From assembly GCF_001559595.1 (NCBI RefSeq), contig NZ_LNTY01000029.1, positions 62,001-126,000 of the forward strand: DNA of 64,000 nucleotides. The letters are read 5' to 3'. Of this stretch, positions 4,962 to 63,268 are shown one piece after another. A model generated the notes under the pieces. That model did not search any database, was not told the DNA's origin, and saw nothing but the letters and a program-made list of their open reading frames with translations. Source of the stretch: Enterovibrio coralii. GTDB taxonomy: Bacteria; Pseudomonadota; Gammaproteobacteria; Enterobacterales; Vibrionaceae. The position numbers and the translations under genes are program-made. Numbering within the stretch: position 1 is the stretch's first letter; the number at the start of each line of letters is the position of its first letter.

Positions 4962-4978
4962 GCGTTATAAAGTTTTAT

Positions 4979-5010
4979 AAAGAAAGCCACCTAGTGTGGC
5001 TTTCTTTTTT
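4979..5010 (+). terminator. Terminator after asmA
   Basis: Stem GAAAGCCAC / GTGGCTTTC with a short loop, flanked by A-rich sequence and followed by a run of six T. Confidence 0.9.
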
Positions 5011-5134
5011 ATGCCTAATCAGCAAGTTAAACGCACCTCGAATCAGCCGAACCTCTCGTGTCTGCCTATACTGTTGTCTAAGAAAGTTTATAAAACGAGA
5101 CAGCCATAGACAACGCGCTAGCAAGGACGGCCAG

Positions 5135-6157
5135 ATGACAACACGCCTGTTCATACTACTTTCTCTCTTTTTGTGCTTCCCGGCATCGGCAAAGGACAGC
5201 TTTAAGGTGTGCTGGAGCCATTACGTGGGGTGGGAGCCATGGCACTACGTTGATACGAGTGGGACACTCAAACGATGGGCAGAAAAGTACGGCATTGATG
5301 TCTCCATTGAGCGCGTCGATGATTACGTGGATTCTCTTGAACGATTTACCAATGGCGAGTTTGATGCTTGCACCATGACCCAGATGGATGCGTTAGCGTT
5401 TCCCGTAGCCCAAGGCGTCGATACCAGTGTGTTGATTGTCGGCGATTACAGCAACGGGAATGATGGCCTTGTCAGTCATGAAGCCAAGACAGTGCCAGAC
5501 ATCAAAGGCAGTAACGTCTTGTTGGTAAAATACTCTGTTTCTCATTATTTGCTTAACCGGGCTTTGTCGAAGTCAAAAATGACCGAAAATGATGTTGAGA
5601 TTGTCGACACGTCTGATGCCTTGATTTTAGAGGCCTTTAGCAAGGACAAAGGCGTCAATATGGTGACATGGAACCCCATTTTACAGCGTGCTGTGGGAGA
5701 GACCGATGCCAATGTCCTGTTTGATTCCTCTCAATTGCCGGGCGAAATTTTAGATGTCATGGTGGTGAAAACTGGCGGCGATGAGAGGCTCAACAAAGTG
5801 CTGGTTGGAGCATGGTTTGAAGTGATGGAAAAGCTTCAGCGCGAGGACAAAGCCGTACTTTCTGCCATGGCGGAAAGCGCAGGCGTCACCTTGGTGTCTA
5901 TCATCAAACAACTTGATGCAACCAAGATGTTTTACAGCCCAAGAAAGGCGGTTCGAATTGCTCAAAGTAACTCACTGTTTAAGGCCATGAATAATGTGCG
6001 GGCGTTTTGTTTTGAACAAGGTTTGATGGGTGATATCGAGGATGTCGATGCGTTAGGAATTTCGTTTCCATCCGGAAAAGTGCTTGGGGACTCTGAGAAT
6101 ATCAAACTGAGGTTTGATAGCCGGTACATGGAAATGGCGGTAAACAACCAACTTTGA
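5135..6157 (+). CDS. Orphan periplasmic solute-binding protein (TauA/SsuA-like)
   Basis: A 340-residue exported protein with a clear signal peptide (hydrophobic core LFILLSLFLCF, likely cleaved after ASA at residue 19). The mature start, KVCWSHYVGWEPW, and the later TNGEFDACTMTQMDAL and DYSNGNDG stretches resemble the NrtA/SsuA-type proteins annotated as putative urea ABC transporter substrate-binding proteins. Ligand identity is not established. No permease or ATPase gene is adjacent, so it is either an orphan or serves a transporter elsewhere. I chose the ATG at 5135 over an in-frame ATG at 4994 because of the AAGGACGG ribosome site and the signal peptide; 4994 lies inside the preceding terminator. 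Confidence 0.85.
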   Translation: MTTRLFILLSLFLCFPASAKDSFKVCWSHYVGWEPWHYVDTSGTLKRWAEKYGIDVSIERVDDYVDSLERFTNGEFDACTMTQMDALAFPVAQGVDTSVLIVGDYSNGNDGLVSHEAKTVPDIKGSNVLLVKYSVSHYLLNRALSKSKMTENDVEIVDTSDALILEAFSKDKGVNMVTWNPILQRAVGETDANVLFDSSQLPGEILDVMVVKTGGDERLNKVLVGAWFEVMEKLQREDKAVLSAMAESAGVTLVSIIKQLDATKMFYSPRKAVRIAQSNSLFKAMNNVRAFCFEQGLMGDIEDVDALGISFPSGKVLGDSENIKLRFDSRYMEMAVNNQL

Positions 6158-6176
6158 GTTGAGAAAGATTAAATGG

Positions 6177-6205
6177 GAGCAAAGGCAAAAACCTTTGCTC
6201 TTTTT
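6177..6205 (+). terminator. Terminator between convergent genes
   Basis: A 9-bp perfect stem GAGCAAAGG / CCTTTGCTC, an A-rich loop and TTTTT. It ends the solute-binding protein transcript just before the convergent CBS gene. Confidence 0.88.
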
Positions 6206-6208
6206 CCG

Positions 6209-6651
6209 TTAAGCGCGTGCTTTTTTCTTCGTTTTCTCGTGCTTTAGCATGTCTTGCAACGCTGCCAACAAGTCAACAGCAGACAACATGCCGACAAGTG
6301 CGTCGGTTTTGTCTAGCACAGGCAAGGCACCGACATTGTGCGCCATCAGTGTCTTATTCGCTTTTGACAGGGTTTCATAGGTGCGGCAGGTAATGACATC
6401 TTTTTCCATAACATCGCCAACCGTGAGGTCGTCAGATAGAAGGTAGGGATGTTCGATGTCGGGCGCTTCATCTGCCCAGTTTGGACGGCGTAATTGCCGA
6501 TCACTGATAATCCCAACCAGTTGCTCGTCTTCCATCACAGGGAGGTGTCGAATGTCTTCATCTCGCATGAGGAAGTAGCTTCCCGAACGCCCATTTGAGG
6601 GGTAATAGTAATGAGTTTACGTGTCATATAGTCTGATACTTTTCCTGGCAT
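6209..6651 (-). CDS. CBS-domain pair protein (reading frame broken)
   Basis: A small soluble protein made almost only of two CBS domains, which usually sense adenine nucleotides. The true start is the ATG at 6649-6651 behind AGGAGAAAAAATAGG. Translation gives MPGKVSDYMTRKLITIT and continues to GVREA, then leaves frame near 6578. One added base there joins it to YFLMRDEDIRHLPVMEDEQ and the rest, giving a complete protein of about 147 residues. Without it only the 119-residue part starting at 6568 is seen. Convergent with the solute-binding protein gene and divergent from the membrane gene at 6833. A 19-bp palindrome lies 37 nt upstream. Confidence 0.87.
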
Positions 6652-6687
6652 CCTATTTTTTCTCCTCTTTAATCATCTCACTTTAAA

Positions 6688-6706
6688 ACCTACAAAAAGT
6701 AGGGTT
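6688..6706. promoter_or_regulatory. 19-bp palindromic element, copy 1
   Basis: ACCTACAAAAAGTAGGGTT: arms CCTAC and GTAGG around five A. It is identical except for one central base to the element at 40155-40173. In both places it lies 37-43 bp upstream of a minus-strand start codon, in a divergent intergenic region. The regulator is unknown. Confidence 0.55.
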
Positions 6707-6832
6707 GAAATGTTGAGAGCCAGAGCACAAAAATCCCGTGGCGATATCGAAACTCCGTAACGAAATATTTTCTAATTCGTACAGAGGAAGATAGTATTCA
6801 CGCTGATAACGATAATGATTTAGGAAGTAGTA

Positions 6833-7863
6833 ATGGATTCAATTTCTCAAGCGGCTTTGGGGGCGGCGGTTGCTGGACTGGTTGCAGGAAAGCGTTGTAC
6901 GCCAACGGTTTTGCTTGCTGGTGCGGCATTAGGAACCTTGCCTGACTTGGATGTTTTGCTCGATTATGGCGACCCCATTTCCAACATGATCAAGCACCGA
7001 GGCTTCAGTCACTCGCTGTTTGTTCTGATCCCATTTGCCGTCGCACTTTCTTTGGTTTGGAAACGTTTTGTAGCGACATCATGGCCTCTTTGGCAATTGA
7101 TGACACTGATTACGCTTGCGCTAACCACGCACCCAATTTTGGACTCCTTTACTACCTACGGCACGCAACTGTTCTGGCCATTAGCTGTGCCACCGGTTTC
7201 TATTTCCAGCATCTTTATTATCGATCCGCTTTATACCGTGCCATTACTTGTGCCTGTGCTAGCGGCGTTCATTTGGCGAAGCAAGCAGCGAAGCTGTGCG
7301 GCGTCGGTCTTGCGTTGTCTTCCCTCTATTTGTGTTGGTCGCTGATTGCGATGGGAATCATTAAAGACCGTGTGGAAGACAACGTGGCAGGTACACACCT
7401 TGAGGGTCAGCCAGTGTTTGTTGCACCCACTCCACTCAACACCGTGCTTTGGCGCATAGTAGTGTTGGATGGCGATAAATACTGGGAAGGCTTAGCGTCT
7501 CTGAAGGATGAAGACCCAACCATTGATTGGATGCCCATGGAGAAAGGCAATTGGCCATTCCCAGCCAAACCAAAGCTTCTGGATGATTTTGAGTACTTCA
7601 CCAATGACTTTGTCCGCTTCCAGCAAGAAGGGAAGGATCTGACCATGACGGATTTGCGTTTGGGCATGGCCATGTACCAACCGTTTAAATTCGTGGTGGC
7701 GCAAAAGGGCGAGGATCAAGTCTGGCACGTCGTTGAGCCTGAGCAGGTTGACCCAGGCCCAGTCTTACCAAGACAAATTCCAGCGTTGTGGATGCGACTA
7801 CTTGGCTGGCAGAGTATTGATGCCATGCTGTGTAATGAGAACGACTGTTTTCGGGACGGTTAA
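6833..7863 (+). CDS. YdjM/YbcI-like inner-membrane metal-dependent hydrolase (frame broken)
   Basis: A multi-pass membrane protein of the YdjM family (DUF457-like). The N-terminal part has the family motifs LPDLD, HRGFSHS and THPILDSFTTYG, whose His and Asp residues are the presumed metal ligands, and several hydrophobic helices. The frame breaks near 7290: one missing base splits the 170-residue N-terminal part, which ends in nonsense after residue 152, from the C-terminal part. The latter continues KLCGVGLALSSLYLCW to a soluble tail ending NENDCFRDG. Joined, the protein has about 343 residues, the usual size for this group. Its substrate is not known. The start ATG follows AGGAAG. Confidence 0.85.
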
Positions 7864-7899
7864 ACAACAAGGGCTCCAAACGGAGCCCTTGTTGTTTTT
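7863..7899. terminator. Bidirectional terminator
   Basis: A 15-bp perfect stem AACAACAAGGGCTCC / GGAGCCCTTGTTGTT, loop AAAC, then T. It sits between the convergent ydjM-like gene and cobO and can serve both. Confidence 0.93.
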
Positions 7900-7911
7900 C
7901 GCGAGGCAGTA

Positions 7912-8502
7912 TTACCAGTCGATGCCTTTACGCACTTTCACGCCGGCTTCAAAAGCATGTTTGACGTTACGTACCTCAGAGACGGTATCTGCCATTTCCG
8001 TGAGTGTGCGATGCGCAGCGCGGCCAGTGATAATGACCGACTGTTCACTTGGACGGTTTTCCAATGCCGTGACGACTTCATCCAGTTCGACATAACCGTA
8101 GGTCACCATGTAGGTCATTTCATCAAGCAGAATGACATCGTAGCTTGGGTCCGCTAGCATTCGCTTACATTCTTGCCACACTTCTTGTGCCGCGCGTGTA
8201 TCGCCTTCTTTGTCTTGCGTATCCCACGTAAAGCCAGTTGCCATTACATGGAACTCAACGCCGCATTGTTGCAGCAGATTTCGCTCACCACACTCCCATG
8301 TGCCTTTAATGAACTGGGCAACACCACACTTTTGTCCGTGACCCGTTGCGCGGGTGATCATGCCAAACCCTGAGGTTGATTTTCCTTTCCCGTTGCCGGT
8401 GATGACCAGCAGCAGGCCTTTTTCAATTTGAGCCGCGGCGACGCGTTCATCCACTTGTTCTTTGACTTTCTGTTGGCGGGCTTTGTAGCGATCGTCGCTC
8501 AT
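7912..8502 (-). CDS. cobO: Cob(I)alamin adenosyltransferase, CobA/CobO type
   Basis: Transfers the adenosyl group of ATP to cob(I)alamin, giving adenosylcobalamin. The 196-residue product matches CobO/BtuR. The P-loop GNGKGKST is at residues 36-43. Further family motifs are QFIKGTWECGE, LDEMTYMV and VIITGRAAH. I chose the ATG at 8500-8502 (MSDDRYKARQ) with AGGACC upstream; an in-frame longer start at 8577 lacks family similarity. No other cobalamin synthesis genes or cobalamin riboswitch are in the window, so it may serve cobinamide/cobalamin salvage. Confidence 0.95.
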   Translation of the reverse strand: MSDDRYKARQQKVKEQVDERVAAAQIEKGLLLVITGNGKGKSTSGFGMITRATGHGQKCGVAQFIKGTWECGERNLLQQCGVEFHVMATGFTWDTQDKEGDTRAAQEVWQECKRMLADPSYDVILLDEMTYMVTYGYVELDEVVTALENRPSEQSVIITGRAAHRTLTEMADTVSEVRNVKHAFEAGVKVRKGIDW

Positions 8503-8692
8503 TGTCGGGTCCTTTAATTCAAATAGCTGATTTCTATGCGCTGCTTTCGCGAATGGATCACAACATACCAAAACCAATTTTTATTGGAAGCGTGAACCGA
8601 AAGTAAATCTGAGTAAATCGCTATGGTATTTCAAATCGTATGTTAATCCGTCAACTACAATCACTCAGAACGCAACATAAGGGGATAGCATA

Positions 8693-9421
8693 ATGAAATC
8701 GTTAGGATGGCTGGTTTTAGGTTTGTCTTTGAATGCAACGGCGGGTGAAGTCGTCAACTATCAAGCCGATGGCATGGACTTAGAAGGCTACTATGCCGCA
8801 GCACAAGGGACGCCAAAAGGCTCAGTACTGTTGATTCATGACTGGGATGGCTTGACTGGCTATGAGCAAAAACGCGTCGATATGCTTTCCTCCATGGGTT
8901 ACAACACCTTTGCAGTAGACTTGTATGGCAAGGGAAACCGTCCGGTTGAAACCAGTGCGAAAAAAGCTGAGGTGGGCAAGCTTTATAAAGATCGAGAGAA
9001 AATGCGCGGCCTTATTTTGGCGGGGTTAAACCGAGCAAGAGCAATGGGGGTTGAAGATGTGGTGGTCGCGGGCTATTGCTTTGGCGGCGCGGCGACACTC
9101 GAGCTTGCCCGGTCGGGTAAAGGTGACGGTGTAAAAGGGTATGCAACGTTCCACGGCGGCCTGAAAACACCGGCGAACCAAAGCTACCCTGAAAATACTG
9201 CACCCATCTTTGTCTCTCATGGTGGCGCGGATAAAGGGATCCCAATGACGGATGTAGCTGACCTATCTGTTCAACTTGAACAAGCGAACGTGCCTTATCT
9301 GATTGAAGTGTACTCTGGGGCGCCTCATGCCTTTACGGTGTTTGATTCCAACCGTTATCGCGAAGCGGCAGACAAACAGTCGTGGGCTACCTTCAGCGAA
9401 TTTCTCGAAGCCAACCTTTAA
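8693..9421 (+). CDS. Exported dienelactone hydrolase family protein
   Basis: A 242-residue alpha/beta hydrolase of the dienelactone hydrolase family. The catalytic triad is visible: Cys129 in GYCFGG (nucleophile elbow), Asp180 in HGGADKG and His212 in GAPHAF. The N-terminus MKSLGWLVLGLSLNATAG is a likely signal peptide, implying a periplasmic enzyme, unlike the cytoplasmic ClcD type. The natural substrate is unknown; family members cleave lactones and esters. The start is well supported by AAGGGGATA 7 nt upstream. It appears monocistronic, and I see no clear terminator after it. Confidence 0.88.
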   Translation: MKSLGWLVLGLSLNATAGEVVNYQADGMDLEGYYAAAQGTPKGSVLLIHDWDGLTGYEQKRVDMLSSMGYNTFAVDLYGKGNRPVETSAKKAEVGKLYKDREKMRGLILAGLNRARAMGVEDVVVAGYCFGGAATLELARSGKGDGVKGYATFHGGLKTPANQSYPENTAPIFVSHGGADKGIPMTDVADLSVQLEQANVPYLIEVYSGAPHAFTVFDSNRYREAADKQSWATFSEFLEANL

Positions 9422-9489
9422 AGGCTAGCGGTAAGCGAGTGCCACAAAGGTTAAGATCCATCAAATGAGGCGGCAGTTCTTGTTGTTTG

Positions 9490-9500
9490 TTGTCTGACAA
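9490..9500. promoter_or_regulatory. FadR-subfamily GntR operator-like site 1
   Basis: TTGTCTGACAA is a perfect palindrome around one base. It fits the general TNGTnnnACNA operator of FadR-subfamily GntR regulators. A second copy lies 58 bp downstream, just before the tyrosine phosphatase start. Confidence 0.6.
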
Positions 9501-9512
9501 ATCATGGTGCTA

Positions 9513-9526
9513 CAGACGTCAGTCTG
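9513..9526. promoter_or_regulatory. Inverted repeat between the two GntR-like sites
   Basis: CAGAC-GTCA-GTCTG, 5-bp perfect arms. The arms contain the same GTCTG/CAGAC core as the flanking sites, so it may be a third, weaker binding site. Confidence 0.4.
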
Positions 9527-9547
9527 CTAGATTGGCATGAGTAAAAG

Positions 9548-9558
9548 TTGTCAGACAA
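9548..9558. promoter_or_regulatory. FadR-subfamily GntR operator-like site 2
   Basis: TTGTCAGACAA, a perfect palindrome around one base, matching site 1 at all but the centre. It ends 19 nt before the phosphatase start codon, a position suited to blocking transcription. Confidence 0.6.
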
Positions 9559-9577
9559 GACAGGATGTCGCCTCACT

Positions 9578-10044
9578 ATGAAAAATCACCAAGCCAAAAA
9601 GATCCTCGTTGTATGTATGGGAAACATTTGCCGTTCTCCGACCGGAGAAGCCGTGCTAAGGCAAAAGGCGAGTGAGCGTGGCATCGACGTGTTTGTCGAC
9701 TCTGCGGGCACCATTGGATACCACGAAGCTCTAAACCGGATGCCAGAAGCCGAGCAGCGGGTGAAGCGCGCGGCTATGACTTCTCAGGGATTTACTCTCG
9801 CCCCGTGGTAATGGAAGACTTTGAACGCTTTGACATGATTCTGGCTTCAGATAAAGCCAACCTCGCTGACCTTCTCGATGACTGCCCAAAACAATACCGT
9901 GACAAAGTCTCTTTGTTTTTAAGCCATGGTGATTCCAAGCTGGATGAAATTCCCGACCCTTACTTTGGGGCAGGAAGAGGCTTTGAGCTGGTGTTAGATT
10001 TGATTGAAGACGCCAGTGACAGCATTTTGGATAAGTGCCAGTAG
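9578..10044 (+). CDS. Low-molecular-weight protein-tyrosine phosphatase (frame broken)
   Basis: A cytoplasmic cysteine phosphatase acting on phosphotyrosine. The P-loop CMGNICRS gives catalytic Cys13 and Arg19, and the general-acid DPYFG motif lies near the C-terminus. The frame breaks near 9728. Adding one G there (GAAGGCTCT) restores YHEGSKPDARSRAAGEARGY and joins the N-terminal part to the C-terminal one (VVMEDFERFDMILASDK onward), giving about 155 residues, normal for the family. I prefer the ATG at 9578 to 9548, because family members start close to the P-loop and the 9548 codon lies inside the second operator-like palindrome. No capsule or kinase genes are nearby, so the partner kinase is unknown. 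Confidence 0.88.
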
Positions 10045-10066
10045 CGTTTGAATTTTCACCTATATT

Positions 10067-10098
10067 GAAAAGCCTGTCCCTGTCAGGCTTTTCTTTTT
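10067..10098 (+). terminator. Terminator after tyrosine phosphatase
   Basis: A 10-bp stem GAAAAGCCTG / CAGGCTTTTC with a 7-nt loop, followed by TTTTTC. Confidence 0.88.
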
Positions 10099-10210
10099 CT
10101 TGCCTGCATTTGCTAAACACTGAGCAAACTCACGGTATAACCCTTGTTTAAAATAGTTTGCTCTTATAAATTTAGGATCTATAGCTGCCATTTTAGTTTG
10201 AGGTAAGGGA

Positions 10211-11185
10211 TTGAAACTTCAACAGCTCAAATATCTTAAAGCGATAAAGGACAACAATCTGAATGTGTCCGCTGCTTCACAATCGCTTTTCACTACGCAA
10301 CCAGGCGTCAGCAAGCAAGTAGGGTTGCTTGAAAAAGAGCTGGGTGTTCGCATCTTTGAACGCCGCGGTAAGAACCTGAGTGGTATCACACCGATAGGCG
10401 AGCGCATTCTGGAGCAGGTCGAGCGCATGCTTGCCTTGGAGCAGAAGATCAAAGCATTGGCGAACGAACACTTGGATCCAAGTGTAGGCACGCTGAACAT
10501 ATACACCACGCACACCATTGCGCGTTACCTGCTGCCAAACAGTGTGTCTTACTTCACCCGTAAGTACCCAAACATTAACTTCCACCTGCATCCGACACTG
10601 CCGTTGCAAACCAAGGGCGTGATCAGCAAGGGCCATTCAGACTTTTCTATCGTGGCGCATGATGTGGGCTTGGACAATGACTTGATTGTGTTGCCAGCAT
10701 ACCGTTGGACTCTGGGTCTGGTTGTGCCAGAAGATCATCCATTGGCTGACATTTCGAAGCCGACACTCAAGCAATTGGCTGAATACCCAATCTTGAGTTA
10801 CGAGCCGGGTGCGACGGGGCGTCGTACACAAGATGAAGCGTTTGAGCGAGAAGGATTGTCGCCGAACTACTTCATGACGGTGATGGATGCGGACGTGATC
10901 AAGCGTTATGTTCAGCTCGGCTTTGGTATCGGTATTGTGTCATCACTGGCAGCGCGAGATATCAAAAACACTGGGCTTAAGTACATTAACCTTGACCACT
11001 TGTTCGAGCCGTCGAATGCGTGGATTTGTTTCTCGAAAGACATCCTGCTGCAAAACTACATGTACGATTTCTTGACCTCATTCTCGCCGCATCTCACCAA
11101 AACTTTGATGGAAAATGTGTTGATGCAAAACAGCAGTGAGAAAGTGGACACCTTGTTCGAAGGGCTTGAACTCCCGGTTTACTGA
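10211..11185 (+). CDS. CysB-like LysR-family regulator (paralogue of the cysB in this window)
   Basis: A 324-residue LysR-type transcription factor of the CysB/Cbl group, the same length as CysB at 23123-24097. The N-terminal winged helix-turn-helix (residues 1-60, NVSAASQSLFTTQPGVSKQV) is followed by the periplasmic-binding-like effector domain. The HTH helix and effector signatures (TTHTIARYLLP, DADVIKRYVQLGFGIGI) are CysB-like but clearly diverged from the true CysB. It probably controls a subset of sulfur, sulfonate or related genes, as Cbl does in E. coli; the effector is unknown. Translation starts at TTG (10211) behind GAGGTAAGGGA, the only start consistent with the conserved MKLQQLKY opening. 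The rare start codon may keep its level low. Confidence 0.88.
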   Translation: MKLQQLKYLKAIKDNNLNVSAASQSLFTTQPGVSKQVGLLEKELGVRIFERRGKNLSGITPIGERILEQVERMLALEQKIKALANEHLDPSVGTLNIYTTHTIARYLLPNSVSYFTRKYPNINFHLHPTLPLQTKGVISKGHSDFSIVAHDVGLDNDLIVLPAYRWTLGLVVPEDHPLADISKPTLKQLAEYPILSYEPGATGRRTQDEAFEREGLSPNYFMTVMDADVIKRYVQLGFGIGIVSSLAARDIKNTGLKYINLDHLFEPSNAWICFSKDILLQNYMYDFLTSFSPHLTKTLMENVLMQNSSEKVDTLFEGLELPVY

Positions 11186-11199
11186 CGAACATCGAATAG

Positions 11200-11229
11200 A
11201 AAAAAACGCCAGCGACATGCTGCGTTTTC
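11200..11229 (+). terminator. Terminator after CysB-like gene
   Basis: AAAACGCcAGC / GCTGCGTTTT, a 10-bp stem with a single bulged C, ending in TTTTC. It lies between convergent genes and may work in both directions. Confidence 0.7.
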
Positions 11230-11244
11230 GTTTGTAGGCTAAGG

Positions 11245-11619
11245 CTACTGACCATCATTTTCCGGTGGTGTACGAATCACTCTGCCCTGATTGTTATTCA
11301 CCTCAGGGTGGTCAACCAGCAAGTGTTTTCTAATCGCTGGTGGCACAGGTTCATTCTCCGGGTGGTGATGGTGGTATATCGGCGTTTTAGGTCGATATAC
11401 ATGATGAGGTCGGTCACCTTCTATGACGGTGTCGGGAATGCGTTTCCCAATAATGATTTCGATGGCCGTCATTGGGTCGGACTCATCAACCTCAACCACT
11501 TGGGTTTCTGTGACCTCTTCGGCTGCACTCAGTGAAAATGCATAGCCACCCAAAAGGATTGGCACAAACACGAGTGCAAGTCGACGAAGCACTTTAGAGT
11601 TCAGATCTGCAAAATGCAT
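11245..11619 (-). CDS. Small His-rich exported protein after the antiporter gene
   Basis: I do not recognise a family. The product has 124 residues: a basic N-terminus, a hydrophobic stretch (LALVFVPILLGGYAFSL) and a probable cleavage after residue 33 (SAA), leaving about 91 mature residues. The mature part has no Cys and holds eight His, including HHVYRP and a run of four His (YHHHHPE), plus many Pro, Asp and Glu. The ATG sits 9 nt after the antiporter stop behind a strong GGGGGGAAAG site, so the two genes are surely co-transcribed. This suggests a periplasmic role linked to acid stress or polyamine export, such as pH sensing, metal binding or acid chaperoning. That is inference only. Confidence 0.75.
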   Translation of the reverse strand: MHFADLNSKVLRRLALVFVPILLGGYAFSLSAAEEVTETQVVEVDESDPMTAIEIIIGKRIPDTVIEGDRPHHVYRPKTPIYHHHHPENEPVPPAIRKHLLVDHPEVNNNQGRVIRTPPENDGQ

Positions 11620-11628
11620 CTTTCCCCC

Positions 11629-12948
11629 CTAGGCCATTGAGCCATTGTCTCTGTTGTCGCGCGCCGCGATGAAGCCATAGAAAATATAGCCAAACAGCGT
11701 CAAGATTGCGCCATAGAAGACGGCCGATTGACCACAGGCGTAGACGCCATAAATACTGTAAACCACCGCCAAGGTGCCGATGAGTGCGCCCGTTTGGTAT
11801 TCCTTCTTGCTGACATTTTTCTTGCGAAGGATCACTTCGAGACCCGTCAGTGACAGAATGTACGGCACCATGTTGATAAATACCGCCAAGTTAAGCAGGA
11901 CGTTAAACTGATTTACGAGGTTTGGCGAAATGGTCATGAGTGCGAGTGCCAGCTCCAGACCTAGCATGATTAACATGCCTTTGATAGGTGCGTCTGCTTT
12001 GTTTACCTCACCAAATACTTTTGGGAAAAGCTTGATGTCTGCTGCGGCTTTTGACACTTGCGCATTCGTGAACTGCCAACCCAGCAAAGAGCCGATACAG
12101 GCGATAACAGCCAAGGCTGTGATGATGCTACCGACCGTTTCGTTAAACATATAGGTATAAACCAGACCAAATGGCGCGTCCGATTTCGCAAGTTCAGCGT
12201 TTGGAATAATGCCTTGAATCACCGAGGTGGAAGCGATATACACAATGGCGGTAAAGCTGGTGGCGAGCATACATGCCAAGGGGACATTCTTTTCGGGGTT
12301 TTCAACGGCCCCCGAGTTAGCCCCTGCAGACTCTATCCCGAGAAACGCCCAGAGCGTCAAAGCAATACCCGATGATATCGCGGTGATGTTCGTGTCTTGG
12401 TGCGGGTTCCATGCTTCTGCAAACACGTCTGGTTTAAACCAAAACCAACCCGCGATAGAAAGACCCACCACAGGAATAATGATACCCCATACGGTAATTG
12501 CCGAAATTTGCCCTGTGATTTTTGGTCCCCAAAAGTTGGCTACCATGGTCACGACAAGGATCGCGACAACGGCAATGAAAGTGTGGATAGGGGTGGTTTT
12601 AATCCAAGGGAAAAACGGTACTAAGTAACCGGCTGCCGAAACGGCAATTGCAACCGCACTGATTACGAGGCAGACGTAGTAAGTGTAAGAGGCGATAAAA
12701 AACGAGGATTTTCCGTGTGCTTCGTTAGCATACGCAGACATACCACCGTCTTTGTTGCAGTACATACCGCACTTTGCAAAGGCATAAGCGATACACATCG
12801 CACCAATTGCGGTCACTATCCACGAAAGCAGGGAAATCGCCCCTGTCTGCGCCAAACTGGCCGGCAGCATTATGATGCCTGACCCCATCATGTTGACCGT
12901 CACTATGGTAGTGAGGCCAACCAATCCCATTTTGTTTCCTGATGCCAT
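11629..12948 (-). CDS. PotE-type amino acid/polyamine antiporter
   Basis: A 439-residue APC-superfamily exchanger with about 12 membrane helices. The sequence follows PotE (putrescine-ornithine antiporter) closely: NKMG opening, VNMMGSGIIMLP, FAKCGMY, KITGQISAITVWG, LWAFLGIESA, SLLGWQFTNAQ and ISPNLVNQFNVL. AdiC is more distant. It exchanges external amino acid for the internal decarboxylation product, exporting a proton equivalent. The neighbouring divergent gene is an arginine decarboxylase, so arginine/agmatine may be the real pair despite the PotE-like sequence. The start at 12948 (MASGNKMG) has a GGAGAACAAGC ribosome site; the longer frame to 13038 adds 30 residues of no family character. 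It is followed by the His-rich protein gene. Confidence 0.9.
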   Translation of the reverse strand: MASGNKMGLVGLTTIVTVNMMGSGIIMLPASLAQTGAISLLSWIVTAIGAMCIAYAFAKCGMYCNKDGGMSAYANEAHGKSSFFIASYTYYVCLVISAVAIAVSAAGYLVPFFPWIKTTPIHTFIAVVAILVVTMVANFWGPKITGQISAITVWGIIIPVVGLSIAGWFWFKPDVFAEAWNPHQDTNITAISSGIALTLWAFLGIESAGANSGAVENPEKNVPLACMLATSFTAIVYIASTSVIQGIIPNAELAKSDAPFGLVYTYMFNETVGSIITALAVIACIGSLLGWQFTNAQVSKAAADIKLFPKVFGEVNKADAPIKGMLIMLGLELALALMTISPNLVNQFNVLLNLAVFINMVPYILSLTGLEVILRKKNVSKKEYQTGALIGTLAVVYSIYGVYACGQSAVFYGAILTLFGYIFYGFIAARDNRDNGSMA

Positions 12949-15683: not shown

Positions 15684-16871
15684 TTATGAACAAGCGATGC
15701 GAACGAAGATTTGCGCGCCGATCAGCAGGAAATCGTCATCCACGTAGTAAGGGCTTGAGTGCAGGTAGTTACAAATGCCTGCTTCTGCGTTACCACTGCC
15801 CAGGAAGAACATCGCGCCTTTCTGGTTTGCAGCCGCGTTAACCATCAGGCTGAAGTCTTCAGAACCTGTCATTGGTTTGCCGTGTGGGTCCAGACGATCT
15901 GCAGGAACAGTCGCTTGAGCCGCATCAACAACGCGCTGGTACGCTTCTGGGTGGTTGATTACCGCAGGGTAACCTTCACATTCCATGGTGGTTTTGAAAC
16001 CACGGATTTCACTTTCTTTCACGAAAGTGCCGAAGCTGTCTTTCAGGATTTGGTCAGTTTCCGCGTCCATTGCACGGATTGTACCGCGAGCCTGTGCGTA
16101 GTCAGGGATTGCATTGGGGATGCTACCGCCGTTGAACATACCACAACCGAATACAGCTGGGCTGAATGGGTTAGTACGTTTTGCAACAACGTAGTCCATG
16201 TCCATGATGATACGGCTAGCTTCACGAATTGCGTCCATACCTTTTTGAGGTGTAGAACCGTGCGCTGAAACACCGTGTACTTCCAGTGTCCAAGCTGAAC
16301 CGTAAGACGACATGATGCCGTTGTTGATTTTCACCATGCCGTATTCCAGTGCCGCGTCATTGTGCAGTGCATACACTTCCGCAACGCCTTCCATACAACC
16401 CAGCTCAACCATTTTGCTCGCGCCAGGTACACGCATGTCTTCTTCTGCCATTTGGAAAACAAAGCGAACGTTGTGTTTCAGTTCTTCTTTGTTTTCTGAC
16501 AGGTATTTCGCTGCGGTCAGGATGATAGCCATGTGGGTATCGTGACCACAGTTGTGTGAACGACCTTCGTGAGTAGAACGGTACTCGTTGTCGGTCATGT
16601 CTTGCATTTCCAGTGCGTCCATGTCCGCACGGAATGCTACGCGAGCCCATTCTGGGTTCACGGTCAGGTCAGCGATAAAGCCAGTGAAACCTTCGTAAGT
16701 GGTCAGCGAGTAACCCATCTCTGTCATCAGTGCCTGACAGTACGCAGAGGTTTTGAATTCTTCACCTGATACTTCAGGGATCTGGTGCAGATCGCGACGG
16801 GTCTTGATGCTGAACTCATGCAGGCCCAGCAGTTTGCCGTCCAGATTAAAATTGCTGTACTTAGCTGACAT
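15684..16871 (-). CDS. M20D-family amidohydrolase (hippurate/N-acyl amino acid hydrolase type)
   Basis: A cytoplasmic metallopeptidase-like hydrolase of 395 residues that removes acyl or aminobenzoyl groups from amino acids or similar amides. The metal-ligand motifs of the M20 family are present: RADMDALEM, NCGHDTHM, FQMAEED and GSEDFS. The dimerisation (lid) domain lies in the middle. The exact substrate cannot be read from the sequence. The ATG directly follows the stop codon of the upstream membrane gene, so it is the last gene of a three-gene operon with two membrane proteins. That suggests the substrate is imported by them, much as AbgT feeds AbgAB. Confidence 0.88.
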   Translation of the reverse strand: MSAKYSNFNLDGKLLGLHEFSIKTRRDLHQIPEVSGEEFKTSAYCQALMTEMGYSLTTYEGFTGFIADLTVNPEWARVAFRADMDALEMQDMTDNEYRSTHEGRSHNCGHDTHMAIILTAAKYLSENKEELKHNVRFVFQMAEEDMRVPGASKMVELGCMEGVAEVYALHNDAALEYGMVKINNGIMSSYGSAWTLEVHGVSAHGSTPQKGMDAIREASRIIMDMDYVVAKRTNPFSPAVFGCGMFNGGSIPNAIPDYAQARGTIRAMDAETDQILKDSFGTFVKESEIRGFKTTMECEGYPAVINHPEAYQRVVDAAQATVPADRLDPHGKPMTGSEDFSLMVNAAANQKGAMFFLGSGNAEAGICNYLHSSPYYVDDDFLLIGAQIFVRIACS

Positions 16872-17321
16872 TTAGATAATCCCTTTCATTTGGAAGCCGA
16901 TTTGCGCAACCATTGATGCGCCGAAGAAACAGCTAGTTGCAACAATCAGGAAGATAACGATAACTTTCCAAGACATCTTCTTCAGTTCTTCCATCTGGCC
17001 GCCTACAGACAGACCAGCGAATGCTAGCAACGGTACACACACTGACAGGAACTGGATCTTACCCACAGACTCCAGGAAGTAAGTGCGAACCGGCGTATCT
17101 GGAAGACAGATCAAAATACCGATGATGGTTGCGTATGCGAACGTTGGTAGAGAAGAAGGAATGAACTTCTTAGCAACCAGCGACAGGAAAACGATCACTG
17201 ACATCGCGATGAAGCTGTCAACCATCTCAAGTGGCGCAGTACCGTTCGTCAGGAATTGGGTAAAACCAGCCAGTACAATCGCAAGAGACACCAGCTTCAT
17301 GTCGTTAAAAATGGCTTTCAT
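16872..17321 (-). CDS. Small integral membrane protein, partner of the DUF3100 protein
   Basis: 149 residues with about four or five hydrophobic helices and short loops (PDTPVRTYFLESVGKIQF, GGQMEELKKMSW). I do not recognise a named family. It starts 4 nt after the DUF3100 gene and its stop touches the M20 amidohydrolase start, so all three are translationally linked. The likely picture is a two-component transporter made of this protein and the DUF3100 protein. The direction of transport and the ligand are unknown. Confidence 0.8.
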   Translation of the reverse strand: MKAIFNDMKLVSLAIVLAGFTQFLTNGTAPLEMVDSFIAMSVIVFLSLVAKKFIPSSLPTFAYATIIGILICLPDTPVRTYFLESVGKIQFLSVCVPLLAFAGLSVGGQMEELKKMSWKVIVIFLIVATSCFFGASMVAQIGFQMKGII

Positions 17322-17324
17322 GGC

Positions 17325-18147
17325 TTATTTACCTTTGTTACAGATTTTGTAGAGAAGTTCAGCCAGTGGCAGACCTAGGAAGGTCAGCGACAGAGCACCC
17401 AGTACTGAAGACAGCAGGTTAGATGCTGCAGCGATACTCAGAACTTGCTTCGCCATTTCTGGATCCAGACCTGAAACCAGTGCGCCTGATGCTGCGCTCA
17501 GCATTGAGCCTGAACCTACGCCCGAGCCTGCTGCCAGAGCCAGTGGGTGAAGACCTGTAAGTGGTGCGATACTGCCAAGAACAGAGAACCAAAGGGTGCC
17601 GATCACAGAACCACACAGGTAGATAGCCAGTACGCCAACGTACTCAGGCTACCGGTGCCGAATTTACCTTGAATAACAGCGATTGAAGGCTCACGCTGAT
17701 AGAAGAACATGCGCCGATCGCTTTACGGCCAAAGCCAAATTTCACAGCCAGAGGAACAGCAACCAGAATAGGAAGCAGGTTACCCAGCTCTTGCAGAAGC
17801 AGAGGAACACCCGCGTCGATGATCATTTCTAGGTTAGGGATGATCATGCCTGCGTATTGCGTGCCCAGAACCAGAAGACAGTAACCTACCATCTTGCCGC
17901 AGAAACCTTCTTCTTTCTCAGTGAAGATTTTGCCCCATGCTTTAACTTTTGTTTTGGTCCAGTTAACAGACAGAGCCATACCGAACATTACTGCGAACAG
18001 CATTGGTAGGATGGAAATGGTAGCAAAGCCCAGGTTGATTTTTTGGGTGCCGATAAGGAATTGCGAAACGAAAATTAGCGCAGCAACTGCGATGACACTG
18101 GTCATCACGATACGCGCTTGTCCGCCTTTGTTTTCTACGTTGCTCAT
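17325..18147 (-). CDS. DUF3100 membrane protein (frame broken twice)
   Basis: A polytopic membrane protein of the DUF3100 family. The N-terminal 155 residues are in frame from ATG 18147 (behind GAAGAAG) up to GRKAIGACSSIS. Adding one base near 17695 gives REPSIAVIQGKFGTGS, and a second near 17648 gives PEYVGVLAIYLCGSVIGTLW, which continues into the C-terminal 93-residue part rich in GSGVGSGSMLSAASGAL. Restored length is about 274 residues. Both missing bases extend a run of identical bases, so sequencing error is likelier than decay. First gene of an operon with a second membrane protein and an M20 amidohydrolase. Confidence 0.82.
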
Positions 18148-18275: not shown

Positions 18276-18399
18276 TAGGGGTTATTGGGCGGTAAAAAGG
18301 TCGAGAGGCACGTGTTAACTGTGTTGCTGAATGGGCATGAAAAGTAACAAGTGTAACCGTCGTAATTATCTCACTTAACAACGATGGCGTGGTGGAATA

Positions 18400-18433
18400 A
18401 AAATAAACCCGGCGCAAAGGCCGGGTTTATTTT
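18400..18433 (-). terminator. Terminator after the solute-binding protein gene
   Basis: AAATAAACCCGGC / GCCGGGTTTATTT with a short loop. On the minus strand the hairpin is followed by a T-rich stretch. Confidence 0.9.
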
Positions 18434-18445
18434 TAGCAAGCAAGA

Positions 18446-19744
18446 TTATTGAACTGGCGGGCAGTACAGTGTCTCTGTTGACGCTTTTTTCATGCTGTCT
18501 TTCTGAGGCTGGTACCAAGATGCCAGCCCTTTTTGTAGCTGTTCTGTGGCTTGTGTTGGTGTCAATTGACCTGCCATCACACCGACGCTGGTTTCCCACA
18601 CTTCCAACTCAAGGTTTGGCTCTCCACGTGACAGGACTTGCGCCGTGTTGCGAATGGTTGAGTCACAGGTATCACGCCATGACATCATTTCCTGCGCAAT
18701 CGGATCTTTGACGTCAAAGAAGTGGTTAGACAGCGAGAAGAAGCCAGAGATTTCGTTGGTCAACAACTCAGCAAATTCCGCCGTGGTCATCCACTTAAGG
18801 AACAGTTCTGCGGCTTCTGGGTTCTTGGACTTGGAATAAATCCCCATGCCTAAGTCGGTGTGATCCGTGAAATAACAGGCATCACCTTTCTTTTCAACGG
18901 GCGGTGGGAACACACCCATGTTCACTTTGCCTTTAAAGGTCATGATGTCCCAAGAGCCCGCTGGATAGACCGCGGCTTTGCCAGTTGCGAAAGCGTCAAT
19001 CGCTTGCGCGTAACTACGCTGGTCAAAATCCTCGCCCATGTAGTTCGCCCACTTTTTCAACTCGGTGAAAGTTTGGCGGTATGCTTCACTGTCAATGCGC
19101 TCGGTACCTTGAACCAATGCTTCACGGCCATCTTCGCCTTTCCAGAAGGTTGGGCCGATGTTCTGAAAGCCCATGGTCGCGGCTTCCCACTTGTCTTTCG
19201 TGCCCATTGCAAGTGGCAGATAGCCTTCACGCTTGGCTTTTTCGAGTGCCCAGTAAAAATCTGCCTTGGTCACTGGCTCGTTGACACCAACTTCTTTGAA
19301 GATGTCTTTGTTGTAAAAGAAACCGTGGATCACTGATGCCATTGGCAAACAGAAGGTGGTCGCGCCGGAATCGGTTTGCCACGGTGTTTGCGCGAAGCTT
19401 GGGAAGTTCTCCATGCCTTCCATTTCGGTGACTTCTTTCAACAGGCCACGTTGGTAAAGGGCGAGTGAGCCATCAAAGGGACGACATGCAATCAAGTCGC
19501 CCGCTGTGCCTTGTGAAAAGCGCTGTTCCATGTCGCCATTCCATTTAGACGCATCCATGTCTGGCGGCGAACGGTATTCAACCTTGATGTTAGGGTAGTG
19601 CTTGTTGAAAGCAGGAATGATTTTCTCATTCCACACTTTGTCGTCACTGCGCCATGAGTCAATCACCAGCGTGGTCTGTGCACTGGCAAATGAAGAGACA
19701 GCCAAAGACATTGCAACCAATGGCAAGAGAGTCATTTTATTCAT
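18446..19744 (-). CDS. Sugar-type periplasmic solute-binding protein encoded after a chemoreceptor
   Basis: A 432-residue extracellular solute-binding protein of the carbohydrate family 1 type (MalE/UgpB-like). The signal peptide ends near ASA (residue 22), followed by TTLVIDSWRSDDKVWNEKIIPAFNKHYP. Other family stretches are SVIHGFFYNKDIFKEVGV, GKAAVYPAGSWD and EAAELFLKWM. No ABC permease or ATPase is near. Instead the gene starts 10 bp after a chemoreceptor stop codon, so binding protein and receptor are made together. The natural reading is a binding protein that delivers its ligand state to the receptor for chemotaxis, as MalE does to Tar. The ligand is unknown. Confidence 0.9.
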   Translation of the reverse strand: MNKMTLLPLVAMSLAVSSFASAQTTLVIDSWRSDDKVWNEKIIPAFNKHYPNIKVEYRSPPDMDASKWNGDMEQRFSQGTAGDLIACRPFDGSLALYQRGLLKEVTEMEGMENFPSFAQTPWQTDSGATTFCLPMASVIHGFFYNKDIFKEVGVNEPVTKADFYWALEKAKREGYLPLAMGTKDKWEAATMGFQNIGPTFWKGEDGREALVQGTERIDSEAYRQTFTELKKWANYMGEDFDQRSYAQAIDAFATGKAAVYPAGSWDIMTFKGKVNMGVFPPPVEKKGDACYFTDHTDLGMGIYSKSKNPEAAELFLKWMTTAEFAELLTNEISGFFSLSNHFFDVKDPIAQEMMSWRDTCDSTIRNTAQVLSRGEPNLELEVWETSVGVMAGQLTPTQATEQLQKGLASWYQPQKDSMKKASTETLYCPPVQ

Positions 19745-19754
19745 TATCAGTTCC

Positions 19755-21728
19755 TTACACGCGGAAGTTAGAAATCAGGTTTTGTTGCTCTTGCGCCAAT
19801 GTGGCTAATGCGTCGCTGCTTGATGCGGATTCACGCGCATCTTTTTCAGCTTCATAAGCAACATGCGCGATGCCATTGATGTGCTCGGCGACATCATGAC
19901 TCACCTTGATTTGTTCTTCGGTTGCTTGTGCAACATGAACTGTCATCTCTTGAATAGCCTGCATGCGTGCCACGATGTCCTGAAGGGTTTCGTCGGTCAT
20001 GCGGGTTTGTGTCAAACAGTCTTCCATTTGCTTCTGGCTAACACTCATGGTTTCCGCCATGCGTGATGCGTTGCCTTGCAGGTTGTTGATCATCTGCTGA
20101 ATTTCTTCAGTGGATTGCTGAGTACGTGTTGCTAGAGCACGCACTTCATCTGCAACCACTGCAAAACCGCGACCATGAGCACCTGCACGTGCTGCTTCAA
20201 TCGCTGCGTTTAGTGCTAGTAGGTTGGTTTGCTCAGCAATGTCCTGAATCACGTGTAGGATTGAACCAATGTGAGAAGAGTATTGGTTCAATTGCTGAGT
20301 GTTCGATACTGCTTCTTCGATATTGCCTGACAGTTGTTCGGTCAACTGGCGGCTGCGAGAGACTTGCGAGCGGCCACTGTTAGCTGCTTGGTTGGTGCTT
20401 TCTACTTCTGCCACCGTCATTTCAGTAGAACGAGAAATCTCTTTCGCACTCACTTCCATTTCAGAGATGGCAGCAGCGACTTGGTCAGTACGAGATTTCT
20501 GGTCTTCCACGCGAGACATTGCACTTTCGCTAACAGACGCTGAGCGTCCTGCTTCATCAAGCAGATGCTTCGCTCCGTCACCAAATTTCGCCAGCGTTTG
20601 AGACATGGTGCTGGCTAGCATGTCGATAGAGCGGCTTAGTTCGCCAAATTCGTCATGAGTGTCGTAGTTGGTGCGTGTACGCATGTCGCCCGCGGTCATT
20701 TTGTCGAGGACGTTGTTGATCAATGCCAGTGGTTTTTGAATGCTGCGTGTGGTGGTAAAACCAACCCACAAGCTGATAGCCGCAGCGATAGATGTCATCA
20801 AAATCACGTACAGGAACGCTTCGCTCACTGCCGTTTCAGCGGCAGCACGGCTTGATTGCGCTAATTGTTGCGCGTGATCGGCAAAGCGCTGAAGCTGAGA
20901 TTGGATACGTTCTAGCTGCTCATTGGTATCACGGTTTGCGCTCAGCAGGCCTTGGTTGATGCGTTGTTGCTGAGTTAGTACATCCAGCAAGCCACCTTGT
21001 CCCAGCGTGAGTGATTCCACCTTTTTCAAGTTACGCGAGTAACGCGCTTTTACGTCATCCTCAACGGAAATCAACTCAAGGCGTTTGAAGGCAATTTCTA
21101 TATCTTTAGACAGTACGGCGCGCAGCTTGGCTAGATCGGTGTCTTGGTTTGCACGACGCAGCAGTTTCAGGTCACGCGCAATACCACTGGTGATAAGTTC
21201 TGCGCGGTTATGCAGAGAACGCTTTACAGATGCTTTTTGCAAAAGCAGATTTGCCGCCCACTGGTAGGTGTCTTCAAGGCGCAGGAATTTCAAATCCAGT
21301 GCTTGACGCTGTTCGACCAAGTCCATTGAACGTTGCTGCATGTCCACCAGCACTTCTGCTTGGTCATAGTAGCGTGATGATGCTTGGTAAATAGCGCGCA
21401 GTTGTTGACGTTCTTCGTCTTGCACCGCGTTATTCTGCGCGCGGTTCAACGTTTGGAAAAAGCGTTGCTTTTGGTCTTCGAACACGCTGTCCACAGCGCT
21501 TACGTTCGTCAGGTCATTGTGGAAAGTGTTAACCAGCAGGTTTGTGCGCATCAACTGCGTGATCAGATCACCTGATGCAACAACCATTGGGGTGGATTGG
21601 TCAGTGATTTGTTCAACTTTGCTTTGAAGCGTTTGTGCGTTGAATAAGCTGACACTGCTGAGTAGAGCCATTAGTACGAAGACTAATGTGAAACCTGCGA
21701 TGGTTCGTTGTACTACGGAAAACTTCAT
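19755..21728 (-). CDS. Methyl-accepting chemotaxis protein with long helical periplasmic domain
   Basis: A 657-residue inner-membrane chemoreceptor. TM1 spans about residues 8-28, followed by a long, helix-rich periplasmic ligand domain (about 30-300) resembling helical-bundle sensors of HBM type. TM2 is at about 305-328, then HAMP, then the cytoplasmic signalling hairpin with the invariant tip [23 protein letters not shown]. There is no NWETF-type CheR/CheB tail. The first gene of a two-gene operon with a periplasmic binding protein. A FliA-type promoter lies about 130 bp upstream, tying it to the flagellar regulon. Confidence 0.95.
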
Positions 21729-21856
21729 TGTTCTCTCACTCTTACGGCAGTCTTGGGGACAGACAAAAAGTAATGTTTGGCGTTAAATTTTTATGACTCA
21801 AAATAAGTCAGCGGGCCAAAACAAAAATGGGGTAATAATTTTGACATCAATCGAAC

Positions 21857-21884
21857 TTATCGGCACTTGGTGTCACATTCTTTA
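21857..21884 (-). promoter_or_regulatory. FliA (sigma-28) promoter of the chemoreceptor operon
   Basis: On the minus strand, TAAA (21884-21881), 16 nt, then GCCGATAA (21864-21857). The -10 element is a perfect match to the sigma-28 consensus and the -35 core matches. Spacing is one longer than the usual 15. It lies about 130 bp upstream of the chemoreceptor start. Confidence 0.78.
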
Positions 21885-21993: not shown

Positions 21994-22018
21994 ATAAAAA
22001 AGGCCCCGCAGGGCCTTT
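21994..22018 (-). terminator. Terminator after the coiled-coil protein gene
   Basis: AAAGGCCC / GGGCCTTT with a 4-nt loop; on the minus strand it is followed by TTTTTATT. The other sequence in 21729-22036 is the chemoreceptor promoter region. Confidence 0.9.
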
Positions 22019-22036: not shown

Positions 22037-22792
22037 CTACCATTTCTTCTTCGGTGCGAAGAGTTCATCCAGTTCTTTGTTCTCTTCATTCTTAGGCTTG
22101 GCAGCCTCGGCACCTTGATTCAGCTTGGCATCGACTTCAGCAAGCATGGCAGTTAGGTTTTCTTTTGCTGATTGACAGTACGGGTCATTCTTAGCACTGA
22201 CAATCGCCAATGCTTTTTTCAGAAGCTGTTGCGCCGTACCCATTTGGCCTTTGATTTGTGCATCGTTAACACGCTTAATGACGTTCTCGATATTAATCTT
22301 GAGCTGCATTTGTTCTAAGCGAGCGTTTTCAGACACGAAAGCTTGCGTCGGCATACGTCCTTTTGTGTGCTCGGCTTTGATAACAGCACGTAGACGCTTA
22401 ACCAGTTTTAGCATTGAGATCGCTTCACGGTCACTGTCAGGAACACGGAAGGAGGTCGACTCTTTGTTTTGGTATGCCTGTTTGATTTGGTTAACTTGGT
22501 TTTGAACGTCAACAATGCGCTGAGGCAGGGAACGGTCCGTCTTATCGATGTCGTGCATCGTTTTCAACGCATCAAGAATTTTTTGGTTCAAACAAACCAG
22601 CAGTGTGCCACTGTATGGCAAATTGTGTGCGTTACCGATCAGCTCTTCGGTGGCATCAATAACAGCAATATATTTAGCCATTTCCTGGCGCTTAGATGAC
22701 TCTACGCGTTGGCGTTGCTGAGCCATGATGTTGTAACCAACAATCAAGCCAAGCAAGATAACAGATAGACCCACAATCAAGGCGATATTCAT
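22037..22792 (-). CDS. Membrane-anchored coiled-coil protein of unknown function
   Basis: A 251-residue protein with one N-terminal transmembrane helix (about residues 3-24, ALIVGLSVILLGLIVGYNIM) and a largely helical cytoplasmic or periplasmic body rich in Lys, Glu and Gln, with coiled-coil character (residues 100-225). The C-terminus is charged and ends LDELFAPKKKW. I do not recognise a named family; similar-looking proteins are found beside cysB in vibrios, from memory and unchecked. It is divergent from cysB with 330 bp between them and ends in its own terminator. Confidence 0.75.
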   Translation of the reverse strand: MNIALIVGLSVILLGLIVGYNIMAQQRQRVESSKRQEMAKYIAVIDATEELIGNAHNLPYSGTLLVCLNQKILDALKTMHDIDKTDRSLPQRIVDVQNQVNQIKQAYQNKESTSFRVPDSDREAISMLKLVKRLRAVIKAEHTKGRMPTQAFVSENARLEQMQLKINIENVIKRVNDAQIKGQMGTAQQLLKKALAIVSAKNDPYCQSAKENLTAMLAEVDAKLNQGAEAAKPKNEENKELDELFAPKKKW

Positions 22793-57873: not shown

Positions 57874-57901
57874 AAAAGCCCTGCATCAGCAGGGCTTTTT
57901 T
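57874..57901. terminator. Bidirectional terminator
   Basis: AAAAGCCCTGC / GCAGGGCTTTT, an 11-bp perfect stem with loop ATCA, between the convergent M16 peptidase and sapF genes; it touches the sapF stop codon. Confidence 0.93.
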
Positions 57902-61534: not shown

Positions 61535-61537
61535 AGA

Positions 61538-63157: not shown

Positions 63158-63268
63158 AAGCCAATGATTTAGTGTTCGGGTTAAGTGTCTCAATTTACCA
63201 CTGAAGCGACCTTGTCACCAAGTGGTGGCGAAAAGAACAGCTCAAAATACAATGAATTGGGCGTGATT

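Follow-up and report, generated by a model that had tools for sequence, protein, structure and literature searches.

What does a sugar-type periplasmic binding protein do when it is encoded with a chemoreceptor and without a transporter? The question is raised by a two-gene unit on the minus strand of Enterovibrio coralii, in which a chemoreceptor gene (19755-21728) is followed by a solute-binding protein gene (18446-19744). The unit lies in a 64,000-nucleotide stretch of contig NZ_LNTY01000029.1 (positions 62,001 to 126,000; hereafter the window) of this 5.5-Mb genome. A first-pass annotation, made from the letters of the window, had proposed that the two proteins form a dedicated sensing pair. 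On balance we favor the reading that a pump-less binding protein of the N-acetylglucosamine type signals through the TorS-like chemoreceptor encoded beside it, with sensing as its main role, because a matching permease was not found in the Vibrionaceae carriers and because the protein is kept with the receptor. The parts of the unit are as follows.

19755..21728, minus strand: chemoreceptor (methyl-accepting chemotaxis protein, MCP), 657 residues; MCPsignal and HAMP above the Pfam cut-offs
20796..21647, minus strand: periplasmic sensor domain, receptor residues 28-311; all-helical and TorS-like as modelled with AlphaFold2 and compared with Foldseek
20613..20750, minus strand: HAMP domain, receptor residues 327-372; PF00672, 30.6 bits against a cut-off of 25
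19860..20348, minus strand: MCP signalling domain, receptor residues 461-623; PF00015, 152.5 bits against 34.6
19745..19754, minus strand: intergenic stretch of 10 bp; GGA right after the receptor stop, a likely ribosome-binding element judging from the sequence
18446..19744, minus strand: periplasmic solute-binding protein (SBP) of the SBP_bac_1 family, 432 residues; PF01547, 114.5 bits against a cut-off of 26
19679..19744, minus strand: probable Sec signal peptide, binding-protein residues 1-22, no lipobox cysteine (by eye from the translation)

The basic layout stands as first described: the binding protein begins 10 bp past the chemoreceptor stop (gap 19745-19754), and no permease or ATPase of an ATP-binding cassette (ABC) transporter adjoins the unit. 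The only PF00528 permeases of the window are ~38 kb away, in an apparent ABC operon of the peptide type that encodes a binding protein of its own (by eye).

As the first-pass annotation had suggested, conservation of the pair was sought in relatives. In a survey of 197 Vibrionaceae genomes, with the binding protein taken at E<=1e-60 and the sensor domain at E<=1e-15, each was found in 48 genomes and both in 47. In all 47 the two genes are adjacent, on the same strand and with the receptor first (Fisher p 3e-43, a value that ignores shared descent). A 61-genome set gave the same picture, since the binding protein (E<=1e-20) occurs in 18 genomes including the source genome, and the receptor lies directly upstream on the same strand in 18/18; these 18 carriers overlap with the 47 above. 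One carrier from the 61-genome set, G048, falls outside Vibrionaceae, in another family of the order. A class-wide search with the sensor domain gave a match in the source genome only, among 369 genomes. In three divergent carriers (L037, L039, L040), the pair is kept while the surrounding genes are different. Receptor and binding protein behave as a unit.

The two genomes with a single partner were then looked at individually. In G100, the sole genome with the binding protein only, the cytoplasmic part of a receptor (73% identity over 326 residues) adjoins and runs off the contig end. In G193, the sole genome with the sensor domain only, the receptor is divergent (31% over 228 sensor-domain columns) and lacks such an SBP. 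It follows a sugar-type ABC operon encoding a Peripla_BP_4 binding protein, a permease, an ATPase and an RbsD/FucU protein (L142, G193:C2:1477000-1490000, 4826-12713). The sensor-domain family may have more than one kind of binding-protein partner. The same operon also encodes a protein with a weak, below-cut-off match to L-fucose isomerase. Separately, the binding-protein gene is interrupted in L034 and L038 (G005 and G017), by one in-frame stop in one case and by a split into two frames in the other, and the receptor frame of G005 ends early. The interruptions are possibly decay or assembly error.

Elsewhere, close relatives of the binding protein are encoded with transporters. A scan of named genomes with the binding-protein alignment gave at least 503 stretches encoding a relative, of which the best 80 were analyzed. 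The receptor lies upstream in 23 of them, with no match to the permease or ATPase queries; 56 have permeases, and one has neither. The 23 receptor-linked loci belong to Enterovibrio, Grimontia, Photobacterium, Veronia and Vibrio, and five of these stretches end early at contig ends. The 56 permease-linked loci, with the permeases downstream, come from Kiloniella, Thalassospira, Marinomonas, Hahella, Rhodobacterales, Rhizobiales, two Chloroflexota, one Nocardioides and others. A 37% receptor match seen in one of these loci, L090, is on the opposite strand and away from the operon. In Salinibius halmophilus (L074, 5004-6227), a close relative (53%) has neither a receptor nor a permease match in its stretch, and is a second solitary form of the binding protein.

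The two groups are also distinct in a tree: among its 87 rows, the 27 that are receptor-linked and the 56 that are permease-linked each make up one side of a branch with support 100/99; the row closest to the window's protein is that of Enterovibrio sp. ZSDZ35 (90% over 403 columns). The wider spread of the transporter form suggests that a transporter protein became a sensor and not the reverse. The direction of this change is our inference, because the root is poorly resolved, with outgroup branches of 7-10, and this counts against the reading. The protein would thus come from a family that feeds amino-sugar ABC importers elsewhere, and in Vibrionaceae would have been retained with a receptor and without the matching permease.

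A cognate permease elsewhere in the genome, named beforehand as the observation that would speak against a dedicated pair, was sought in the 18 carriers with one cognate-type subunit as query (L087, 7253-8116). No match (E<=1e-20) exceeded 35% identity in any of the 18, and none at all was obtained in G024 and G048. By comparison, the matches to the same subunit in permease-linked loci have at least 59% identity to it in all 55 where it was matched, Chloroflexota and Nocardioides included. The source genome has six matches at 27-31% identity. These leave some room for a dual role, in which the binding protein also serves another sugar ABC permease and is sampled by the receptor, like maltose-binding protein with Tar; there is a precedent in PstS, which is described as acting both in transport and in CtpL-mediated taxis (PMC4926252). 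However, each of the six lies within ~2.2 kb of its own PF01547 binding protein, and two of the 18 carriers are without any match. We therefore regard a dual role as unlikely. Use by a distant permease of ~30% identity is possible as far as the sequences go, and is a point against our reading that no finding favors. Two apparent exceptions were also rejected by eye. The ABC genes behind the pair in L039 were not taken as a cognate transporter, being apparently of the polar-amino-acid type with their own 252-residue binding protein; and the C49 permeases, which had seemed to be without a PF01547 partner, have their own binding protein beside them. The missing permeases suggest, at the level of gene content, that taxis could be the protein's only job, as had been claimed.

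We next consider whether the receptor is built to respond to a protein. It has the MCP signalling domain and a periplasmic sensor domain (a 284-residue helical model), that is, both parts of the architecture of a binding-protein-stimulated chemoreceptor. The sensor domain reaches no Pfam cut-off (4HB_MCP_1, PF12729, 20.6 bits against 27), while the divergent G193 receptor passes that of 4HB_MCP_1 with 32.6 bits. The HBM sensor domain, of the McpS type, has a Pfam model of its own, and this was not named at E<=1 in a scan of 22 sensor-domain members. A search of PDB sequences with the sensor alignment returned only a designed protein (E 0.024) and a MerR regulator (E 0.52).

The AlphaFold2 model of the domain consists of helices only and has a mean predicted local distance difference test score (pLDDT) of 90.8 and a predicted template-modelling score (pTM) of 0.77. 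Compared by Foldseek with 350,542 solved chains, its best match is 3o1h_A, TorS from the TorS-TorT complex (E 1.8e-4, template-modelling (TM) scores 0.66/0.69, 276 aligned columns). The match covers the whole domain; with a predicted model and 11% identity, it speaks for fold likeness only. Identity to the TorS chains as a group is 11-14%. The top seven matches comprise five TorS and two PilJ chains (ranks 3-4), with McpS at ranks 9-12. TorS chains from TorT complexes have TM scores of 0.61-0.69 to the model, and McpS chains 0.45-0.56; TorS solved alone gives 0.46/0.48 for the E. coli structure 3i9w (rank 7), like PilJ, and 0.61/0.73 for 3i9y. The earlier description of a long helical periplasmic domain suited to protein-protein sensing is supported by this model and by its best match. 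TorS itself is a sensor kinase and TorT is of another binding-protein class, whereas here the domain is joined to an MCP output domain and has an SBP_bac_1 partner.

The same comparison holds a point against protein docking, because the fold class also includes PilJ and McpS, and E. coli TorS without TorT (3i9w) fits no better than they do. It is accordingly conceivable that the helical domain binds a small ligand of its own, the binding protein being unrelated or merely buffering. The fold matches include PilJ as well as structures of the McpS type with malate or succinate, and McpN is described as binding nitrate through a PilJ domain (PMC6381276). We consider this very improbable, given that exactly these two genes co-occur and adjoin (47/47) and that McpS fits less well than the TorS chains from the complexes. 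Protein docking on the sensor domain is supported by two precedents: TorS is bound by a periplasmic binding protein, and CtpL is stimulated by PstS. By analogy, the modelled TorS-like fold favors docking, though PilJ and McpS show other uses of the fold class. Conservation of the domain is highest at receptor residues 148-191 (mean majority fraction 0.82-0.87 versus 0.37-0.69 in the remaining segments), which could be either a docking or a signalling part.

Taken together, the adjacency in 47/47 genomes, the shifting surroundings, the lack of a permease above 35% identity in 18 carriers and the TorS-like sensor strongly support the proposal of a dedicated sensing pair. In the mechanism that we favor, the binding protein, in the periplasm, would catch a small N-acetylated amino sugar (N-acetylglucosamine (GlcNAc), chitobiose or a close relative) and would dock on the TorS-like helical sensor domain of the neighbouring receptor. 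Its closure on the sugar would change the receptor dimer, thereby CheA activity and, in turn, swimming. The pair would thus probably guide the cell to sugars of the chitin type instead of serving uptake. Docking, ligand, taxis output and the direction from transporter to sensor are all inferred here.

Known systems differ in when such docking occurs. TorT is described as binding the TorS sensor domain both in its ligand-bound and in its ligand-free form; the same holds for LuxP and XylFII with their sensors, and maltose-binding protein binds only when loaded (PMC6321045). For a private partner we lean, by analogy, towards a standing subunit that would be bound both empty and loaded. A bolder version of our proposal, which we put forward tentatively, is that the pair could be the missing chitin-sugar chemotaxis receptor in part of Vibrionaceae; the pump-less SBP would be a standing subunit of a TorS-fold receptor, bound empty and loaded like TorT, LuxP and XylFII, and the TorS-like domain would be a docking module for different binding proteins. 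The last part comes from the G193 relative of the receptor, since it comes after an ABC operon whose binding protein is of a different class.

Which sugar the protein binds was approached from gene context and from structure. Among the best 80 loci, the neighbours include matches that are NagA-like in 46, NagK-like in 49, to a GntR regulator in 47, MurQ-like in 40, NagB-II-like in 37 and to NagB in 9. None of these six types was matched in the 23 receptor-linked loci or in L074. Curated models agree for a permease-linked locus of Marinomonas balearica (NagA 299.7 versus 225.65 bits, NagB 307 versus 236.9) and for one of Kiloniella spongiae (NagA 304.2 versus 225.65, MurQ 334.6 versus 168); in the latter, the NagK (kinase) and NagB-II models are the best matches, yet below cut-off. 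Because nagA-, nagK-, nagB- and murQ-type genes sit in their operons, most transporter relatives appear to handle amino sugars.

The AlphaFold2 model of the binding protein (pLDDT 92.8, pTM 0.88) has the chitin-oligosaccharide binding proteins NagB1 and NagB2 of Paenibacillus as Foldseek ranks 1 and 2, with six NagB1/NagB2 chains at ranks 1, 2, 4, 5, 8 and 9; NagB1 also comes first in a single-sequence search of PDB. The contacts of chitobiose-bound NagB1, as published (PMC8233162), were carried over through an alignment of the two proteins. The sugar-stacking W213, Y272 and W292 of NagB1 align with W186, Y245 and W265 of the binding protein. These three, together with V138, H140, H295 and D297, are identical in 17/17 receptor-linked and 17/17 permease-linked rows. 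At an 88% criterion, 129 positions are alike in the two groups. Conservation is confined to the permease-linked rows at 65 positions, which vary in the receptor-linked ones, and to the receptor-linked rows at 38 others. Cysteines C87, C132, C290 and C360 are invariant in 35 aligned binding proteins and may, to judge from the alignment, perhaps form two disulfides.

Several observations weigh against a chitin-type ligand. A family-profile search of PDB ranks raffinose binders at the top (RafE, 7e-25) and NagB1 seventh (1.3e-21), and raffinose, xylo-oligosaccharide and other sugar binders follow closely behind NagB1/NagB2 in Foldseek. The protein is far under the NCBIfam cut-offs for TIGR03851 (NgcE, 30.5/399.65 bits) and TIGR03850 (CPR_0540, 40.3/299 bits). 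Beside the aromatic platform, contacts differ from those of NagB1 (E167 to H140; S330-N331 to T296-D297), and such a platform is described as common to binders of several sugars (PMC8233162). Finally, L086, L100, L120, L125 and some contig-cut permease-linked loci are without nag genes in their stretches, and a few, such as L086, L100 and L125, are without any of the six neighbour types. Since profile ranking, shared platform, differing contacts and SBP-model scores weaken the structural case, gene context is the main evidence on the ligand.

It is in this light that a variant with the same pair and mechanism has to be weighed, in which the ligand is not GlcNAc or chitobiose; it could be N-acetylmuramic acid (MurNAc) or another peptidoglycan or glycan sugar, and the cell would follow lysed bacteria or mucus. 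The MurQ-like matches in 40/80 loci, a MurQ score above the curated cut-off for L077 and the raffinose binders that lead the profile search all fit this variant. On the other hand, NagB occurs without any MurQ-like match in the stretches of nine permease-linked loci (Marinomonas, Hahella, Balneatrix, Pokkaliibacter), and chitin-oligosaccharide binders top the Foldseek ranking; we consider the variant rather doubtful, though less so than a dual role in uptake. In favor of the GlcNAc-type reading that we prefer, NagA and, at five places, GH18 are matched above cut-off in the source genome. This NagA (C34:289107-290224; L168, L169) is in two adjoining pieces in different reading frames. The earlier call of a sugar-type binding protein is narrowed by the relatives' gene contexts to an amino sugar, with GlcNAc, chitobiose or MurNAc as the first candidates for the exact sugar.

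Private binding-protein partners of kinases are known, LuxPQ being an example. In Halobacterium salinarum, a 2002 study is said to have found BasB and CosB encoded beside transducers and serving taxis. CBP, the periplasmic chitin-binding protein of Vibrio, belongs to another SBP family. Chemoreceptors stimulated by binding proteins are likewise described (PMC9602780), and several systems resemble the pair in part. CtpL of Pseudomonas aeruginosa is a chemoreceptor with a helical bimodular sensor domain that is stimulated by loaded PstS (PMC4926252, PMC6321045); pstS, however, is reported to adjoin the genes of its own phosphate transporter (PMC4926252), whereas the binding protein of the present unit is encoded with the receptor, and a search of 18 carriers gave no cognate-type permease. 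BasB and CosB are given as putative binding proteins that copurified with transducers including BasT and CosT; unlike the present pair, these systems are archaeal and concern amino acids and osmoprotectants (PMC3579733). Within Vibrionaceae, CBP is described as reporting to the membrane sensor ChiS (PMC10208484), and the locus numbers of cbp and chiS are neighbouring (PMC11906056); the output is transcription and not taxis, and cbp is counted with the chb operon (PMC11906056). NagB1 and NagB2 share the fold and the stacking Trp, Tyr and Trp, but they have 20-22% identity and otherwise unlike contacts, and are described as predicted parts of sugar transporters (PMC8233162). The pectin-binding protein SPH1118 of Sphingomonas sp. 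A1 is a sugar-polymer binding protein used in chemotaxis, although it is reported to have a role in assimilation too (PMC9314435, PMC7055323).

What is new here is an SBP_bac_1 protein of amino-sugar transporter kin that is pump-less, paired with an MCP whose sensor domain is TorS-like, and patchy in Vibrionaceae (48/197). A literature search, with most subscription journals outside its coverage, returned no description of such a pair in Vibrionaceae among the titles and abstract openings listed. Vibrio fischeri is described as swimming towards products of chitin breakdown, and a 2019 review gives the MCP behind its response to chitobiose as unidentified (PMC6814793). The pair is a concrete candidate for a chitin-sugar taxis receptor in the carrier genera Enterovibrio, Grimontia, Photobacterium, Veronia and some Vibrio. 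It would also be a clear example of a protein of the uptake type that works as a sensor, in which no permease was found in the carriers searched, the cleft-aligned residues are unchanged and the pattern of conservation has shifted elsewhere.

The expression signals around the two genes are as follows.

21857..21884, minus strand: sigma-28 (FliA)-like site, TAAA-N16-GCCGATAA; exact match
18398..18435, minus strand: terminator hairpin 3' of the unit; RNA fold -23 kcal/mol, z -6.47, 0/200 shuffles as good
21999..22018, minus strand: weaker terminator-like hairpin ahead of the promoter, between the unit and the upstream open reading frame (ORF) 22037-22792; z -2.31, 4/200 shuffles as good

The terminator behind the binding protein and the terminator-like hairpin ahead of the promoter delimit the unit to two genes. 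As for the sigma-28 promoter that had been proposed in front of the receptor, the exact site is indeed there, with an N16 spacer that we take to be one longer than in the E. coli sigma-28 consensus (N15). Exact TAAA-N14..17-GCCGATAA sites number 10 in the whole genome, compared with 1 site for the reversed pattern, and when the 350-bp region upstream of the receptor was shuffled, 0/60 shuffles matched the pattern equally well. The site recurs in 13/13 loci of the genus, being exact in 7 and off by one mismatch in 6, with an N16 spacer throughout. With up to one mismatch, it was found in 0/17 loci of other genera, although for L063 among them the upstream sequence is limited to 150 bp. The promoter is thus a trait of this genus only, unlike the pair itself, and the conserved match makes the unit a predicted member of the FliA regulon in the genus. 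The idea that receptors of this genome generally have a FliA-type promoter was rejected: in 20 other receptor stretches, a receptor was caught in 14 and none in 6, and only 2 of those 14 have a site with up to one mismatch (L155, L162); 11 further MCPsignal places were outside the scan.

Past the terminator, the same strand encodes a DUF3100 membrane protein, a second membrane protein (a 149-residue ORF) and an M20 amidohydrolase (15684-18147, minus strand). These are non-ABC genes; they occur near the pair in much of the genus and are absent there in the other genera examined. The DUF3100 gene (17325-18147, minus strand) consists of two ORFs (167 and 93 residues), and its counterpart in relatives such as L024 is a single ORF of 274 residues, so that the split is either a frameshift or a sequencing error. 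In the distant peptide-type ABC operon (57900-63193), one permease is likewise split, into two overlapping ORFs (60573-61534, minus strand).

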